Part shown: positions 40,532 to 48,161 of the stretch, piece after piece
Layout of the letters: the number at the start of each line of letters is the position of its first letter
How positions within the stretch are numbered: the stretch's first letter is position 1
Origin: Spirochaetales bacterium
GTDB taxonomy: Bacteria; Spirochaetota; Leptospiria; Leptospirales; Leptonemataceae
NCBI GenBank assembly: GCA_015075425.1
Contig: JABTUL010000001.1
Location: 1,984,001 to 2,048,000, forward strand
DNA: 64,000 bases
Reading direction: 5' to 3'
Translations under genes and position numbers: made by a program
The notes under the pieces: model-generated
The model's input: only the letters and a program-made list of their open reading frames with translations
Database searches by the model: none
Told to the model about the DNA's origin: nothing

Positions 40532-41278
40532 ATGAGGATCGGCCTGGTAAGCTTTCTCAATGCCCGTCCCCTGGACTATGGCATCCGCAAAAGTGGCGCT
40601 CATGAAATAACCGTGGCCACGCCATCGGCGCTGGTAGACCTGCTCCTTAAGGGAGAGATCGATACAGCGCTTATAAGCAGTGTAGAATGCCTGCGCCATC
40701 CTCAATTGTATACCTGTCCGGACGTTGGCGTGGCTTCTGCCGGTCCGGTCGATTCCATTCTGTATTTTGAAAAGCCCTCCCCCGCCTTTCTGTCCTCCCC
40801 TCCCGGGATCATTTATGTGGACCGTGGTTCCCGCTCCAGCGTTGCCCTGATCCAGACGCTTATGGCCCAAAAATTTGGCTTTCTTCCGCAAACAATCAGT
40901 GAAGATCCTGGCCTCATTCCCGGTCGTGTAAAAGAGCGCAGCTCCGCCGGCCTTCTCATTGGCGACAACGCTCTGGCCTTTGCCGACTCTCCACAGTCCG
41001 GTGGTTTTATCATCAAAGACCTGGGGGCCTGGTGGCAGGAAAGCGAGGGACTCCCTTTTGTGTACGCCCTTTGGGCCGGGAATCAAAGTCTCGATCCTGA
41101 TTTCTTTAAAGATTCTCTGACAGAGGGACTGGGGCACATCGAGGAGATCGCCTCCGAATCATCGTACAGCAAATCTTTACAGTACCTGAAAGAACGACTG
41201 CACTTTCAGCTGGCCGAAAGCGATCACGCTGGCCTTGAACGATTCAGGGAGCATCTGCGGCGCTGGCAGCTACTTTAA
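40532..41278 (+). CDS. mqnA: Chorismate dehydratase MqnA (futalosine menaquinone pathway)
   Basis: A 248-residue MqnA, a periplasmic-binding-protein-like fold enzyme that dehydrates chorismate to 3-enolpyruvylbenzoate, the first step of menaquinone synthesis by the futalosine route. The N terminus RIGLVSFLNARPLDYGI and the segments LISSVECLRHP, GPVDSILYF and GDNALAFAD match the family. No ribosome binding site is visible. A TTGATT box lies 36 nt upstream. The last 35 nt overlap the convergent lipoprotein gene. The other mqn genes are not in the window. Confidence 0.88.
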   Translation: MRIGLVSFLNARPLDYGIRKSGAHEITVATPSALVDLLLKGEIDTALISSVECLRHPQLYTCPDVGVASAGPVDSILYFEKPSPAFLSSPPGIIYVDRGSRSSVALIQTLMAQKFGFLPQTISEDPGLIPGRVKERSSAGLLIGDNALAFADSPQSGGFIIKDLGAWWQESEGLPFVYALWAGNQSLDPDFFKDSLTEGLGHIEEIASESSYSKSLQYLKERLHFQLAESDHAGLERFREHLRRWQLL

Positions 41279-41903
41279 GTTCTGTGACAAAAACAAGTGA
41301 AGAACCTTCCTTCAGTGTGGCCGTAAGTGGCACACTGAGACTTGCCAGTTGACCGGTCAGCTGGCCTGTTGTTTCCACCTGCATCTGGGGCGGAAAAGCA
41401 ACCTGCCAATCCAGGCGATGCCCTTCCAGACTCGCATGCGCCCGTTCCGCATAACTGGCCAGCAAAGGAAGCTCATTTTCTGCAGGGATGTCCGCGCGGG
41501 CCAGCTCGCGCCCAATACGCAACCGATTGCGTCGCAGCGAGACCGTCGCTTTGCCCGGCAAGATTTGTGCCAGTTCCCCCGGGCCATCAAAGGCTATCTT
41601 AAAAGACACCCGGGCGCGGTCTGTTAAAGGGCCGCTCGGCGCTTGCATATAATATACCCGATAGTCCTCAATGCGACGCGTAAAAAGCAATCGCGAAAAG
41701 TGACTTTCGATATCCGATTTTCTGACTGGCAGAAAACCTATCATGCTCTGACCGCTGGCAGAAAAGACGGGAACCGAGTAGGTCATTTCTACATAGCCGC
41801 TCCAGGCCCTCAGAAAAACGATTCTCTCTTTATAATCAAAGCACCCGCTGACCCAGGGCAGAAGACATAGAAAAAAAACCACACGCAATCCGCTTGACCC
41901 CAT
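41244..41903 (-). CDS. Predicted lipoprotein of unknown function
   Basis: About 219 residues. From ATG 41903 the N terminus MGSSGLRVVFFLCLLPWVSGC is a clear lipoprotein signal with a canonical VSGC lipobox. The mature protein is beta-rich and has no family I recognise. The longer frame to 42011 would overlap the divergent HAD-fusion gene and lacks a signal at its N terminus. Convergent with mqnA, with 35 nt of overlap. Confidence 0.7.
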   Translation of the reverse strand: MGSSGLRVVFFLCLLPWVSGCFDYKERIVFLRAWSGYVEMTYSVPVFSASGQSMIGFLPVRKSDIESHFSRLLFTRRIEDYRVYYMQAPSGPLTDRARVSFKIAFDGPGELAQILPGKATVSLRRNRLRIGRELARADIPAENELPLLASYAERAHASLEGHRLDWQVAFPPQMQVETTGQLTGQLASLSVPLTATLKEGSSLVFVTELKVAASAADAP

Positions 41904-41954
41904 CCAGACCGGAAAACCCGTTACGGGCAGGAAGATCAAGCACTCCCTCTTTTT

Positions 41955-43901
41955 ATGTCTGGAAAATACACTATCGGGCCCGACAAAGACTTGATCATTG
42001 TGGATGCGCACGACACCATCCTCAAGCGTGATCTATCCCGGGATCCCCTGCAAATCTTTGGTGACCCCCGTCAACCGGAGCGCCTTGAATGGGGAATGCG
42101 CGATGGTCTTCTCAATTTCATTGAATACTTTACCCAGATCCGTAAGGCAAAAATCGTGATCAGTTCGGACGGCAACGTGGAGCGCCTCCGCGATGTCTTT
42201 GAACGATTCGGCATTGCCAGGCGTATTGCCCGGATCTACGGCCGCGAACACCTGCACAAAGAAACCTATCTGAAGCAGTTGGACCGGATCCTCCTTGATG
42301 CCGGAGTGGAAAAAGAGCGGGCCGTTTTTATCGGAGATAGCAAAATCGATGGCTACTCTGCTGAACGCTACGGCGTGGAATTCATCGCTGTGCCAGGAAC
42401 TCTTGATGATCCTGCTTTCAGCTTCAACGAATTCTTGCGCGAGGCTTTGCGCGGCCCTGACCACGGACTTTTAGTGCAACGGATCACCAATCTACGGCGG
42501 GTACAGCGCAACCTGAGCACACCGGAACTTGTAGAAGCGGCAACCCGGAATAAGGAAGGCTCCCTTGTGCACCTGGGGGCCCTGGCCGTCCGGGCAGACT
42601 CCCGGGAAGCCCGGAGGAACCTTTATGCAGTCGATGAACCCTCAAGCCAGGCCAGGATCTACTGGCAGGGGACCTTTGCTCGTTTTCCGGCACAGGCATT
42701 TGAAACCCTGTATCTGCGATTGCTCGCTTTTCTCCAGGATCGCGAACTGTACATTCAGGATTGTGCCATGGGCTCAAGTGACGCCAGGCAGTACCCTTTG
42801 CGCATCATCACCCAGACCGCATGGCATTCCCTGTTTGCGCGCAACACCTTCATCCAGCTACCTGATAGTAAACTTTCCGATTTTTTACCGGAATTTACTA
42901 TCATTCACGTACCGAACTTCCGGGCCATCGTAGATTTTGATGGAACAGAAGATGAAACCTTTACGATTCTGCATCTGGCACGCAAGCTCGCCGTCATCGG
43001 TGGAACGTCGCATGCCGGACAAATCCGGACAGCTGCCTACAACTTGACCGGCTACTTCTACGCACAGGAAGATCTACTCCCGGTAAATTGCTCGGCCAAC
43101 TCACGGGAGGAACGTCTGCTGCTGTACTTTGGTCTGCCCGGCCCTCTCAAATCACGAGCAACTCTGGCGGATGGTACTGTCTTTTTTGGAGATGCTCACC
43201 AGCTCTGGTCTGCGGACGCCATCTACAATCTGGAATGGGGCTGTTATGAACCTCTCTGCGGAAAAAATCACAATCTTCCTCTGCCGGTCAGGGAAGCCAC
43301 CAGGCGATTTGCCACCATCCTGGAAAATGTTCCCCTCCTGCCTGGCCGGCGCGTGGATGCCGGGGCCATGGGAGAGCAGGCAATGGCCTCGTTTCCCATT
43401 ACCCACTTAAACCAGGTCAATCGCAAAGGACAGAGCCCGCCGCCTGCGGCCGTGCTTTTGCTTCTGCGTGACGCTCCGGGATTTTTTCCCACGCCAGCGC
43501 GGCTCACACCTGCCCAGTGGATCGTTCTTCTCTTTTGTGGGTACGACGCACCGGACCCCACGATGGTTCTTCCGGTGATGCGCCCGTTCTTTGATTCTTA
43601 CCCGCTACTTTTCCACCCTGCCAGATACGCTATGCTTCTGTATGAGCGTCTCCTGCGTTCCGCGACCACCTGCTGGCTGTTGTGTGAAAGGAAGAACGAG
43701 CTGCCCATTGCAGATATCGAAGCCATTCAAAACAATGCACTCGATCAAACCGACTGGCAAGAGGACCCGGTCTGGAAGATGCAGAGCCCCGCCACTGCCC
43801 TGAGTGAACGGGCATCTGCCCTGAAAGCCGACTGTCTTCTTGAACTTAAGAAATATAAAGAAATTTTTGATCCCGCCCTGCTCAGCGCTTTTGATGGATA
43901 G
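41955..43901 (+). CDS. HAD domain fused to a catalytically stripped ATP-PEP-carboxykinase-like domain
   Basis: A 648-residue protein. Residues about 10-165 are a HAD phosphatase-like domain: VDAHDTIL at 16-23 (the usual DxDxT reads D-x-H-D-T), Ser70 in KIVISSDG, and GDSKIDG at 127-133. Residues about 200-580 follow the fold of ATP-dependent PEP carboxykinase: LYIQDCAMG, AWHSLFARNTFI, FTIIHVPNFRA, GGTSHAGQ, CSANS, YFGLPGPLK, GDAHQLW, NLEWGCYEP and PARLTPAQ...FCGY. Nearly every catalytic residue is changed: P-loop GxSGTGKT reads GLPGPLKS, GDD reads GDA, the HCSAN His is Asn, and the GExKK lysines and TENTR arginine are gone. It is therefore probably a pseudo-PEPCK. The stop overlaps the next gene by 8 nt. 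Confidence 0.82.
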   Translation: MSGKYTIGPDKDLIIVDAHDTILKRDLSRDPLQIFGDPRQPERLEWGMRDGLLNFIEYFTQIRKAKIVISSDGNVERLRDVFERFGIARRIARIYGREHLHKETYLKQLDRILLDAGVEKERAVFIGDSKIDGYSAERYGVEFIAVPGTLDDPAFSFNEFLREALRGPDHGLLVQRITNLRRVQRNLSTPELVEAATRNKEGSLVHLGALAVRADSREARRNLYAVDEPSSQARIYWQGTFARFPAQAFETLYLRLLAFLQDRELYIQDCAMGSSDARQYPLRIITQTAWHSLFARNTFIQLPDSKLSDFLPEFTIIHVPNFRAIVDFDGTEDETFTILHLARKLAVIGGTSHAGQIRTAAYNLTGYFYAQEDLLPVNCSANSREERLLLYFGLPGPLKSRATLADGTVFFGDAHQLWSADAIYNLEWGCYEPLCGKNHNLPLPVREATRRFATILENVPLLPGRRVDAGAMGEQAMASFPITHLNQVNRKGQSPPPAAVLLLLRDAPGFFPTPARLTPAQWIVLLFCGYDAPDPTMVLPVMRPFFDSYPLLFHPARYAMLLYERLLRSATTCWLLCERKNELPIADIEAIQNNALDQTDWQEDPVWKMQSPATALSERASALKADCLLELKKYKEIFDPALLSAFDG

Positions 43902-45147
43902 ACAGGAAAGACGCTCCACTCTTCTTTGCTCACCCACCATCTTAAACATGGATGATTTTCTCTCTCTGGAAGTCCGTCCTTCTGACTATGGCAGGAGCCG
44001 GGCAGGCTCTCATGTCCATGACATTTCCTGCGTTCTGTCAGGTCCCACCCACTACTTTGCCAAGGCGGAAAAAGCCTGCATCAAGTTACCTTCTCCACGT
44101 ACGGAAAGCTATGACTCTTTTGGTTCTTTTGTAGAATCCCTGTTCAACGGAATGGAGGGCCGCAGCCCTTCGCGCACATTCTCTTTTGAAGATGACCCGG
44201 AAATCAGTCCTCTTACTCTGCATGAGTCGGACTTCCAGGATGTGGATGTATCAGCGATCCATGACACTATGGACCCGGCGCTCATTTCACTCCCTGCGGT
44301 TCGGGCAGCCTTCATTCTCTATCTGGGAAGAAAAGAATCTCTGGAAGGACCGGAAAAAACATACTTGAATGTATTCAATCATCACGGCCGCGATATCATC
44401 TGTGAGTATCTATCATTTGCAACCGGCCGACTTCTGGGTGTGCCCATCCCCCGGATCTTTCCAGGCCTCAGAAAAGAGAGTAATAGAGAAGTGCGCTACG
44501 TTCTATCAAGGTCCCTGGGTCAGAGGCCTGCGGAGCTTTCCGGGGAATTGTCCCACCTGCTCATAGAAAAACAAGACCCGGATCTGGCGCGGCAGGTCCG
44601 CAGAAGCCAGGGCTGGCCCAATCCCCTGGGTATTCGGGCAAGAGAGAACAACTGGCCAGCGGAGATTCCGGAGCTTTTACTGGCCGATTTCCCCCACCAT
44701 ACCGATCTGATCCGTTCCGACGTACTGGACATCATTCTGTCCTGCGATGCGGATCGCAAGCTCGAAGAATTCCTGCTGCCACGAGGGCGCAGCGGGCCAA
44801 TATACACCGTTGACTATGGCGAAGCTTTCTATTCCGAACTGCAATTCGCACCCGATGATGGTCATCTGCTCGCGCGCCTGGCCGAGCACAAATCGCGACT
44901 GAAGCATCTGCTCATGTCTATCAAGGAACGGCCGCGCTCTCCTGTTGAGGAACGGTATGCAGGGATAGCACACGAAACCCTTACGGCCTTTGCCGGTATC
45001 AAGCTGGATTTTTTCCGGCAAATACTGCATGGTTTTCCGCAGATTTTTTTTCACTATGAATCCAGCAGTCCCCGCCTGGCTCTGCGAGCGGAAACGCTGA
45101 CCTTTGTCCTGATGCAGTTGGGGCAGCTGTGCCGCAAGCACCTTTGA
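43894..45147 (+). CDS. Unknown protein, possibly a diverged kinase-fold protein, coupled to the HAD/pseudo-PEPCK gene
   Basis: About 417 residues from ATG 43894, which overlaps the preceding stop by 8 nt; a frame from 43840 would lie inside the HAD fusion. No signal peptide. Residues about 157-190 (YLNVFNHHGRDIICEYLSFA then GVPIPRIF) and 280-312 (ILSCDADRKLEEF, later YTVDYGEAF) recall the Glu helix and the D-R-H-x-x-N plus I-D-H-G elements of HipA/PI4-kinase-like enzymes. The Asn is replaced by Glu, so even if the fold is right, the activity is uncertain. Translational coupling makes it the likely partner of the HAD/pseudo-PEPCK protein. I would treat the kinase idea as a hypothesis only. Confidence 0.5.
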   Translation: MDRQERRSTLLCSPTILNMDDFLSLEVRPSDYGRSRAGSHVHDISCVLSGPTHYFAKAEKACIKLPSPRTESYDSFGSFVESLFNGMEGRSPSRTFSFEDDPEISPLTLHESDFQDVDVSAIHDTMDPALISLPAVRAAFILYLGRKESLEGPEKTYLNVFNHHGRDIICEYLSFATGRLLGVPIPRIFPGLRKESNREVRYVLSRSLGQRPAELSGELSHLLIEKQDPDLARQVRRSQGWPNPLGIRARENNWPAEIPELLLADFPHHTDLIRSDVLDIILSCDADRKLEEFLLPRGRSGPIYTVDYGEAFYSELQFAPDDGHLLARLAEHKSRLKHLLMSIKERPRSPVEERYAGIAHETLTAFAGIKLDFFRQILHGFPQIFFHYESSSPRLALRAETLTFVLMQLGQLCRKHL

Positions 45148-45237: not shown

Positions 45238-45579
45238 ATGCAGAATTTAGCGCTCGTTGTAATGGATGGCAATTTGACTGCCGATCCAGAGAGCCGGAAA
45301 ACCAAATCGGAGAAGACGGTGACTGTGTTTACCGTCGCTCTCAATCATGAGTGGGGTGCAAAGGAAGGCAAGAACGCCGTGTCTTTCATTCCTGTCGAAT
45401 GCTGGGATAAGCTCGGGGACAATTGTGGCCGCTTCTTAAAAAAAGGAAGCCGGGTCACCGTTCAAGGGCAACTGCGCCAGGATCGCTGGAAGGACGATAG
45501 CGGTCAAAACCACAGCCGGGTCAAAGTGATTGCCCGGGATGTGCGCTTTGATCAAAGGCCTGCGGCTGAGGCGGCCTGA
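45238..45579 (+). CDS. ssb: Single-stranded DNA-binding protein
   Basis: A 113-residue SSB with one OB fold: VMDGNLTADPESRKTKSEKT, then VTVFTVALNH, FIPVECWDKLGDNCGRFLKKG and VTVQGQLRQDRWKDDSGQ. It coats single-stranded DNA during replication, repair and recombination. The usual flexible tail and its terminal DDDIPF-type acidic hexapeptide, which recruits repair proteins, are missing; the protein ends soon after the OB fold in PAAEAA. It may therefore be a secondary, specialised SSB. AGGAG precedes the ATG, next to a regulatory-looking hairpin. The last 28 nt overlap the convergent radical-SAM gene. Confidence 0.93.
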   Translation: MQNLALVVMDGNLTADPESRKTKSEKTVTVFTVALNHEWGAKEGKNAVSFIPVECWDKLGDNCGRFLKKGSRVTVQGQLRQDRWKDDSGQNHSRVKVIARDVRFDQRPAAEAA

Positions 45580-48161
45580 AGTGTCAGAGGGGGCTCGCTG
45601 TATGCGGGCCCCCATTTTGTTACCGTCACATCAACGTTCCATCTTTCCACGGGCAATCCAGCACTGCTTAAGAGTTCCTGAATGGAAGCAAACTCCTTCC
45701 CCGTGCGCAAGGTGATCTGGATCGACCGCCCCGGATCCTCACAGGACACAATCGCCTCTTGTAGAAAACGTTCGCGCATGGATTTCTTTTTCCGATGGTA
45801 AAAAGATCCGGTGCGCGGCAGGGATTCCAGGGCCCTGAGGGTATTTTGTTTGCACACTTCATCGTGAAACGCAAGCTGGTAGGTTTCCTCCGGCACCACC
45901 GTCATCCGGGCATGGTCCACCTTTTCAATGCTTAACAGTTCCATTCCTGGAGGAATTTGCTGTTCAAGCAACTCCCTGGCCAGGACAGGATCCATGGCTT
46001 CGTAGAGCTCACAAATAACAATCTCGTTACGCGAAAGCATGTAGAGCGGCACAGGGCGGTCAAAATGCAGCTTCTCATGCTTGTTGAAACCCTGAGAAAA
46101 ACTTAAGGGCCAGCGGGCTCGCCGCAAGGCCTTGCGCAGGGCGGTCATAAACTCCAGGTGCCCTACATATTGCATGGGATGACTTTTCCCGAGGACCAGC
46201 TTGAGGAGTATGACGGTCTGGAATTTGTAAGCGGGCATCTCCACCGGACGGAGGAGATCTTCCGGGAATTCTGAATTACTCAAAGCCTGAGGATGAGGCG
46301 GATTCATGTTCTCTTTATTGACACCGCGGTATTTTTCGTAGTCACGGACCAGCTTTTCCAGAGGGAAGCCGTCCACCAGACTGTGCCAGGGAACATACGT
46401 ACCGCCAGCTCGCTCTCCCAGCCAGAGCTGCAGCAAACTTTCCGGAACGTGGCTTAATACATCCTGCCAGATCGAACGGGCAAACGCATTGTCCCAGGAG
46501 CAAAATCGGGCACCGCGATGATAGGCCTGGGCCAGGTAAGCACCGACACGATGATCCCCGCGCGATAGGAAACCTTCCACATAAGCCATCCAGGGATCGG
46601 GATATTTCAGGTGAACCCGCCTGCTCTTTAAGCCCGCTTTGATCCGGGCTATTCCCGACGCAAAAAAATCCGGAAGCTGTTGCTTTTCCCACTGGAAGGT
46701 GGTAAAGGGCTTGGGAACAAAAAGAGACACGCTGACATTGACGTTCTTTCTCTGTCCCGATTCCTCCGCGATACGGCCCAGCGCGTTCAAAGAGCGAATC
46801 AGATCTTCGACTTCCGTCCCTTCCAGATCCGGTAGGCCCAGCATAAAATAGACTTTCACCAGATCCCACTTCCGGGAAAAAACTTCGCGGATGAGGTAGT
46901 GCAAATTTTCCTCGGAAGATTTTTTATGAATTCTCTCTCTTTGCAGTTCACTGCCCGCTTCCAGAGCAAAAGTAACACTGCTGCGGCGGATGCCGGCGGT
47001 CATTTCCAGCACAGGAATCGTCTTCACCTGCACGCGCAGACTGGGCAGTGAAATGGAAATACCCTGGGGGCCAAACTTTCCGGCCATGGCAACCACCAGC
47101 TCTTCAAGCCAGGGATAATCCGCTATGGATAGAGCGTGCAAGCTTACCGAATCATTACCGGTCATGGCAAGCAGACGGTCGGCCGTTTGTACCAGGGCAT
47201 CCACCTCACTGTTACGAACAGGCCGCTTCCAGAAGCCCGCGTGACAAAAACGGCAGGCCTGACCGCAGCCGCGGGTAACTTCAACAACGACCCGGTCCTG
47301 GGTAACGGCAATGGATGGAACGATGGCATGCTTTAGATCCGCAAAGACCGGCGCACGATGTGTTCTCTTTTGCACAGCAACCGTTTGATACTGCGGGTAG
47401 TGACCCGGGTCTCCCGGATGGGTAATTTGTACTCCGTTAAACACAAGAAGACCGCTGACAGAAGCCAGCTCATTTAGAATGGTACTGCGGTCCTTTCCTT
47501 CCTCTTTGCACCGGGCGACAATCGTCAGAATCTCAAGAATCGCCTGCTCACCGTCGCCCAGAAATACAGCATCCACAAAATCATACAGAGAAAGGGGATT
47601 GGTAACGGCCGTTCCACCAACAATGACGATGGGCTCACTCTGATTGCGGTCGCGGCGCAGCAGGGGCAGACCGGCCAGATCCAGGGCATACAGTATGTTG
47701 GAAAAATGAAGCTCATGGGCCACATTAAATCCCCAGACATCAAAGCTACTGGCCAGAAGATAGTGTCCCAGACTGTAGAGCTTGACACCGGCCTGCTGCA
47801 TGAGGCTACCCATGTCCGTCCAGGGGAGGTAGGCGCGGTCGGCGAAAAAATCCCCATGCCGCATGACAACATCATAAAGAATCTTGAGTCCCTCGTTGCT
47901 CATTCCCAGTTCATAGGTGTCCGGGTAGGAAAGCAGGATACGCGCCCGGGCTGAAACAGGATCACACTGAGGAATGCCAAATTCTCCACCGGTGTAACGG
48001 CCCGGGCGCTCCACTTGCTGGAGCAACGGTGCCAGTTGCTCAAAAGAGAGAAATTTTGGTTCAGGTTGGAAGGGCACAAAAAAAGATCCGGGAACAAGGG
48101 TGGCGGTCAATGCTTTTCTATTCTCAGGGAAAATGATTTTCCAGGAAGATCCGTTTTGCAT
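45552..48161 (-). CDS. Radical SAM protein (TIGR03960 type) fused to DUF2344 domain
   Basis: An 869-residue protein. The N-terminal part (about 45-260) includes a B12-binding-like region. The radical SAM domain (about 285-530) has the cluster motif CGQACRFC (Cys-x3-Cys-x2-Cys), and the C-terminal 220 residues are a DUF2344/TIGR03936 domain (LVLGKSHPMQYVGHLEFMTALRKA then FSQGFNKHEKLHF). In many bacteria these two parts are found fused in this order, usually near RNase E/G and ribosomal genes, and an RNA-modification role is suspected but unproven. AGGTCAGGA precedes the ATG. The start lies only 11 nt from the divergent TetR start. Confidence 0.92.
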   Translation of the reverse strand: MQNGSSWKIIFPENRKALTATLVPGSFFVPFQPEPKFLSFEQLAPLLQQVERPGRYTGGEFGIPQCDPVSARARILLSYPDTYELGMSNEGLKILYDVVMRHGDFFADRAYLPWTDMGSLMQQAGVKLYSLGHYLLASSFDVWGFNVAHELHFSNILYALDLAGLPLLRRDRNQSEPIVIVGGTAVTNPLSLYDFVDAVFLGDGEQAILEILTIVARCKEEGKDRSTILNELASVSGLLVFNGVQITHPGDPGHYPQYQTVAVQKRTHRAPVFADLKHAIVPSIAVTQDRVVVEVTRGCGQACRFCHAGFWKRPVRNSEVDALVQTADRLLAMTGNDSVSLHALSIADYPWLEELVVAMAGKFGPQGISISLPSLRVQVKTIPVLEMTAGIRRSSVTFALEAGSELQRERIHKKSSEENLHYLIREVFSRKWDLVKVYFMLGLPDLEGTEVEDLIRSLNALGRIAEESGQRKNVNVSVSLFVPKPFTTFQWEKQQLPDFFASGIARIKAGLKSRRVHLKYPDPWMAYVEGFLSRGDHRVGAYLAQAYHRGARFCSWDNAFARSIWQDVLSHVPESLLQLWLGERAGGTYVPWHSLVDGFPLEKLVRDYEKYRGVNKENMNPPHPQALSNSEFPEDLLRPVEMPAYKFQTVILLKLVLGKSHPMQYVGHLEFMTALRKALRRARWPLSFSQGFNKHEKLHFDRPVPLYMLSRNEIVICELYEAMDPVLARELLEQQIPPGMELLSIEKVDHARMTVVPEETYQLAFHDEVCKQNTLRALESLPRTGSFYHRKKKSMRERFLQEAIVSCEDPGRSIQITLRTGKEFASIQELLSSAGLPVERWNVDVTVTKWGPAYSEPPLTLQAASAAGL

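Follow-up and report, generated by a model that had tools for sequence, protein, structure and literature searches.

A HAD domain joined to a predicted inactive ATP-type PEPCK fold, and its overlapping partner gene, in one bacterial genome

Closest described systems and the gene pair

ATP-dependent PckA (PF01293), represented by T. thermophilus 1J3B/1XKV and E. coli 1AYL, resembles the second half of the protein P0001 described here over about 430 residues, with 30% identity and the same predicted fold. P0001 differs from it in that its catalytic, metal and substrate positions carry other residues or are deleted, a HAD domain is added at the N-terminus and the C-terminal lobe is shortened. With the capless (C0) HAD hydrolases, that added domain has in common the motif I nucleophile and motifs II, III and IV, but its second Asp is a His (DAHDT), and the standard phosphatase acid/base is missing.

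An inactive PEPCK fold has a precedent in the Euglena complex I subunit NDUEG2, which is homologous to PEPCK, was considered non-functional because ATP sites are missing and had no detected activity (PMC10884005). NDUEG2 is like P0001 in its PEPCK fold judged inactive and acts as a protein subunit (PMC10884005); it differs in being eukaryotic, in its mitochondrial complex I context and in having no HAD fusion. Residues 254–424 of P0001 match NDUEG2 weakly (E 0.009), and a link of descent between the two as pseudoenzymes is not shown. The HipA_2 kinases (PF20613), one of which forms with DUF3037 a toxin/neutraliser pair for phage defence (PMC12548924), share a faint, non-significant colinearity with residues 153–318 of P0002, the partner of P0001, but here there is no DUF3037 partner and the key metal Asn is not kept in P0002. 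A literature search found no bacterial PEPCK pseudoenzyme and no HAD-PEPCK fusion under the terms tried; to judge from its sequence, P0001 is a previously undescribed pseudoenzyme architecture, known from one genome.

The window, the whole stretch of 64,000 nucleotides that was analysed, contains the two genes on its forward strand:

41955..43901, + strand: P0001, HAD / pseudo-PEPCK fusion gene, 648 aa, ATG start, a single open frame
43894..45147, + strand: P0002, partner of P0001, 417 aa, no family match

The start of P0002 overlaps the end of P0001 by 8 nt, and the two proteins may be made together through this translational overlap. The coordinates, lengths and overlap given in the original prediction were all correct on re-check. 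No clear Shine-Dalgarno sequence precedes the ATG of P0001, and a promoter scan gave no signal above chance.

The P0001 frame runs through 648 codons without stop or frameshift, and its codon use and its GC at the three codon positions resemble those of the neighbouring housekeeping genes. Composition gives no support to a recent horizontal gain. In a tree of PckAs, P0001 sits on a terminal branch of 4.8 to 9.5 changes per column; the median branch has 0.3–0.4, which makes that of P0001 roughly 10 times as long or longer. Since the open frame is intact despite this very long branch, and the codon use is native, the function of P0001 appears to be maintained and not decayed, which argues that selection still holds the protein.

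The two domains of P0001

The PEPCK domain and the segments of its active site are located as follows, the last five by alignment:

42495..43796, + strand: pseudo-PEPCK (ATP type) domain, residues 181 to about 614 (PF01293, phmmer, AF2, Foldseek)
43011..43031, + strand: segment of Y207/K212/K213 (metal and CO2/PEP site), here H353...R358-T359
43086..43088, + strand: metal ligand H232, here N378
43131..43157, + strand: P-loop GLSGTGKTT, here G393-L-P-G-P-L-K399-S400-R
43191..43202, + strand: kinase-2 motif DDEH, here D413-A414-H415-Q416, with the metal ligand D269 lost
43383..43385, + strand: substrate R333, here M477

Residues 181–614 match PF01293 (PEPCK_ATP) with 239.8 bits (E 6.5e-71; cut-off 26.5), and phmmer gives 215.6 bits against T. 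thermophilus PckA (1j3b); the 251 bits reached against the NCBIfam pckA equivalog lie far under its cut-off of 636. The AF2 model of P0001, for which 22 PckAs from viral contigs were aligned with it, has a pLDDT mostly above 80 across residues 181–610; when the PEPCK domain is cut into blocks of ten residues, the mean exceeds 90 in most of the first 16. Over the HAD half, which has no alignment behind it, the pLDDT is below 50. The best Foldseek match of the model in the PDB is 1xkv (E 1.1e-46; TM normalised by target 0.79), and the first 35 matches are all ATP-PEPCKs. The ATP-PEPCK fold originally claimed for the second half of the protein is thus upheld by the PF01293 and phmmer matches and by the structure predicted with AF2 and compared with Foldseek.

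The active site was mapped on an alignment of P0001 with 96 canonical or phage PckAs, in E. coli numbering (a first pass used 20). Y207 corresponds to H353, K212 to R358 and K213 to T359. In the P-loop, S250 and T252 are replaced by prolines and G253 by leucine, the Lys is retained (K254, here K399) and a Ser (S400) is present; the resulting GLPGPLKS does not fit the pattern G-x-S-G-T-G-K-[TS]. In the kinase-2 motif D268 is kept as D413, D269 is A414 and E270 is H415. R65 is kept as R220, R449 is E582 and T455 is deleted, and the lid loop is partly deleted, with the loss of T394, E395, F405 and S406. Ten residues that are identical in 96/96 canonical PckAs (Y207, K212, K213, H232, S250, T252, G253, D269, R333 and R449) are changed in P0001, the metal ligands K213, H232 and D269, kept in every canonical protein, being T359, N378 and A414 here.

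Since P0001 has lost H232, D269, the substrate Lys and Arg and much of its lid loop, the alignment predicts that it cannot run the PEPCK reaction, and the PEPCK half is, on this evidence, a real pseudoenzyme. Among the positions for which the original prediction had proposed a comparison (Y207, K213, H232, K254, D269 and R333), five are changed and K254 is kept. Its losses of the kinase-2 Asp, the metal-binding His and Lys and the substrate Arg were confirmed in the 96-protein alignment, and its claim for the P-loop held for the three substitutions that break the motif, but not for the Lys. The losses in the lid loop and at R449/T455 in the substrate loop are additional to those it had listed.

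P0001 keeps 35/90 (39%) of the columns conserved at 95%, while no canonical row keeps fewer than 91%. The conserved columns that remain are 16/48 at the active site and 19/42 elsewhere, without significant excess of losses at the active site (Fisher p 0.28). Because the losses are not significantly concentrated there, the PEPCK domain seems to have relaxed or drifted as a whole.

The domain in front of it contains these features:

41955..42449, + strand: N-terminal HAD domain, capless, residues 1 to about 165 (Pfam HAD_2, alignment to other HADs)
42003..42017, + strand: HAD motif I, D17-A18-H19-D20-T21, with the nucleophile Asp kept and the second Asp replaced by His (alignment)
42333..42350, + strand: HAD motif IV, G127-D128-S-K-I-D132, intact (alignment)

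Pfam HAD_2 matches residues 63–146, over motifs II–IV, with 29–32 bits (cut-off 23.8), and motif I was located by aligning the domain in MAFFT with further HADs from the phylum. Motif II (S70) and motif III (K102) are present in this alignment, and motifs II–IV together with the Rossmannoid homology place the N-terminus in the HAD superfamily. About 53 residues separate motifs I and II, which leaves no room for a C1 cap. Motif I reads DAHDT against the canonical FDLDGT, the other HADs aligned reading DxDGT or similar, and it fails the DxDx[TV] pattern of hydrolytic HAD phosphatases. Both the HAD domain in front of the PEPCK fold and the His at the second Asp, as originally described, are therefore supported by the HAD_2 match and the alignment.

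The second Asp of motif I is the acid/base of HAD phosphatases; other residues are found at this position in dehalogenases, phosphonatases and ATPases. Since this usual acid/base is replaced by H19, a phosphatase activity of the P0001 HAD domain is doubtful. It may be a slow or non-hydrolytic domain for phospho-handling, or a second binding domain, and could be a second pseudoenzyme.

Distribution, ancestry and genomic context

No orthologue of the fusion or of P0002 was found among 48 genomes of the class, 21 other family members included, which yielded canonical or variant PckAs only. A 393-genome sample of the phylum likewise gave no orthologue of the fusion; in it P0002 had no homologue and the HAD part of P0001 matched generic HADs only. 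Neither the fusion nor the partner appeared when plasmids and phages were searched with tblastn, or when 85,000 species and the viral contigs were scanned with patterns, a type of scan that reaches close relatives only. Within the sets searched the fusion and P0002 are known from one genome, and distant homologues may exist elsewhere.

A second PckA gene, intact and separate, lies 180 kb from P0001 in this genome of 4.13 Mb and 4 contigs (C1:1843855; 712.8 bits), so P0001 cannot be explained simply as a decayed housekeeping copy. Nor does it look like a single damaged copy of an otherwise intact fusion, since no intact homologues were found and the housekeeping PckA is a separate gene. The sequences closest to P0001 are alphaproteobacterial and Thermus PckAs, and trees uniting it with the PckA of the family were rejected (AU test, p-AU 0.015, with a caveat for long branches); on these two grounds a recent duplication of that PckA was rejected as its origin.

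Upstream of the pair lies a block of EamA, an MqnA-like gene (PF02621) and a lipoprotein gene, which the relatives keep beside UbiA/LON/UbiX. Downstream are ssb and a gene for a radical SAM protein; in most relatives these adjoin a UvrD-like helicase. The two blocks, 41244–42011 and 45238–48161, are separate in family relatives and meet here with P0001 and P0002 between them. As UbiA (C1:1064743) and the UvrD-like helicase (C1:1623424) are elsewhere in this genome and the two blocks are joined, the pair stands at a lineage-specific rearrangement junction. Neither flanking block points to the function of P0001 or P0002. The lipoprotein gene (41244–42011, - strand) has no Pfam match and is found beside the MqnA-like gene across the family, with 23–32% identity.

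The partner protein and possible functions of the pair

P0002 has no match in Pfam, NCBIfam, PHROGs or PADLOC. Searches of PDB sequences, phages, plasmids, viral contigs, genome contigs and the 393 phylum genomes returned only P0002 itself or matches with E >1. AF2 from the single sequence gave no usable model (pLDDT 34). In hhalign with a 12-member profile, residues 153–318 are colinear with HipA_2 over 126 columns, including an E-P-I-P-R segment, DPD...RRSQG..LGI, DADR and VDYG. P0002 ranks 2/296 among the queries, behind only a true HipA protein, and scores above 150/150 shuffles and 142/143 other proteins, the exception being that true HipA. Enlargement of the profile raised the score from 22.2 to 26.4 (best of 150 shuffles, 25.6); the match is not significant, with a probability of 4.5% and an E of 0.009 for a single comparison. 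With hmmsearch --max and the HipA_2 profile, P0002 ranks among shuffles. By this alignment a Glu would stand in place of the Mg-binding Asn, and no ATP-binding Lys can be recognised. The likeness to HipA_2 is a suggestive lead only. Residues 226–247 of P0002 (about 44569–44634 of the window), DPDLARQVRRSQGWPNPLGI, resemble a DPE..DLLRSS.G.NLGI element in the HipA_2 kinases of the relatives.

We consider the chances about even that P0001 combines a dead ATP-type PEPCK fold with a capless HAD domain and that its PEPCK half serves as a binding or scaffold module, working with P0002. The PEPCK half would be non-catalytic; its ligand could be a phosphate-bearing molecule near the kept patch of K399, S400, D413 and R220, or a protein surface. 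The pseudo-PEPCK might position or control the HAD domain, and P0002 would be the physical partner of P0001. NDUEG2 offers a precedent for an inactive PEPCK fold as a binding subunit, which tempers the claim of a new system: the HAD/pseudo-PEPCK fusion with a coupled partner is supported, but with one genome and this precedent the pair is at most a candidate for a new system.

The faint HipA_2 signal admits a phospho-switch, in which P0002 is a diverged HipA-like kinase that the HAD domain reverses or restrains, with the pseudo-PEPCK as sensor or scaffold, the pair resembling a toxin-antitoxin or defence pair. The colinear alignment, its rank, its rise with the larger profile and the example of HipA_2 with DUF3037 speak for it; the low probability, a shuffle that nearly equals the score, the hmmsearch result, the absence of any family match, the unmatched Mg- and ATP-binding residues and the lack of identified defence genes near the pair make it rather unlikely. 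Similarly doubtful is a two-gene system in which the pseudo-PEPCK with its modified HAD senses a central-carbon metabolite and controls a HipA-like or new partner. A changed chemistry, with the PEPCK domain still binding a nucleotide or phosphorylated ligand for another transfer and the HAD domain acting on the product, would make use of K399, S400, D413 and R220, which are on the phosphate side of the active site, and of a P-loop that still reads GxxGxxKS; with H232, D269, Y207, K213 and R333 gone, two prolines and a leucine in the P-loop and much of the lid lost, this seems a little less plausible again.

Some ATP-PEPCKs, such as that of T. cruzi, are dimers. This dimeric state and the intact PckA of the same genome would allow P0001 to act as a regulatory paralogue, in mixed dimers with that enzyme or otherwise controlling it, but P0001 and the family's PckA are not sisters (under the same long-branch caveat), the sequences closest to P0001 are alphaproteobacterial and Thermus PckAs and the genes are 180 kb apart, so we regard it as improbable. 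Its occurrence in one genome, where two blocks meet that are separate in relatives, would suit a decaying, functionless gene captured at a rearrangement junction; against this, the intact codons and native codon use after so long a divergence, the confident core of the AF2 fold and the intact coupled partner make decay very improbable.

Should P0001 bind PEP, oxaloacetate or a nucleotide but not convert it, a gluconeogenic enzyme would here have given rise to a sensor of metabolites. P0001 and Euglena NDUEG2 would then testify to repeated recruitment of the PEPCK fold for a non-catalytic role.

Long PckA-like frames (615–654 aa) of class relatives were considered as orthologues of the fusion and rejected, as the two whose whole sequences were read, L022 and L023, keep GLSGTGKS and have no HAD domain. 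L022, L023 and L024 are divergent PckAs of 612–654 aa with an N-terminal extension and about 260–270 bits to PF01293, and sit on a long branch away from every other PckA; in L022 and L023 the P-loop and DDE motif are intact. Weak PF01293 matches of 580–670 aa elsewhere in the phylum may, by their length, be GTP-type PEPCKs. PckA homologues also occur on at least 80 IMG/VR contigs (L142–L221), several above 100 kb, and the P-loop is kept in 79/79 of the viral-contig frames tested, which points either to gluconeogenic enzymes carried by phages or to viral bins that contain cellular DNA.
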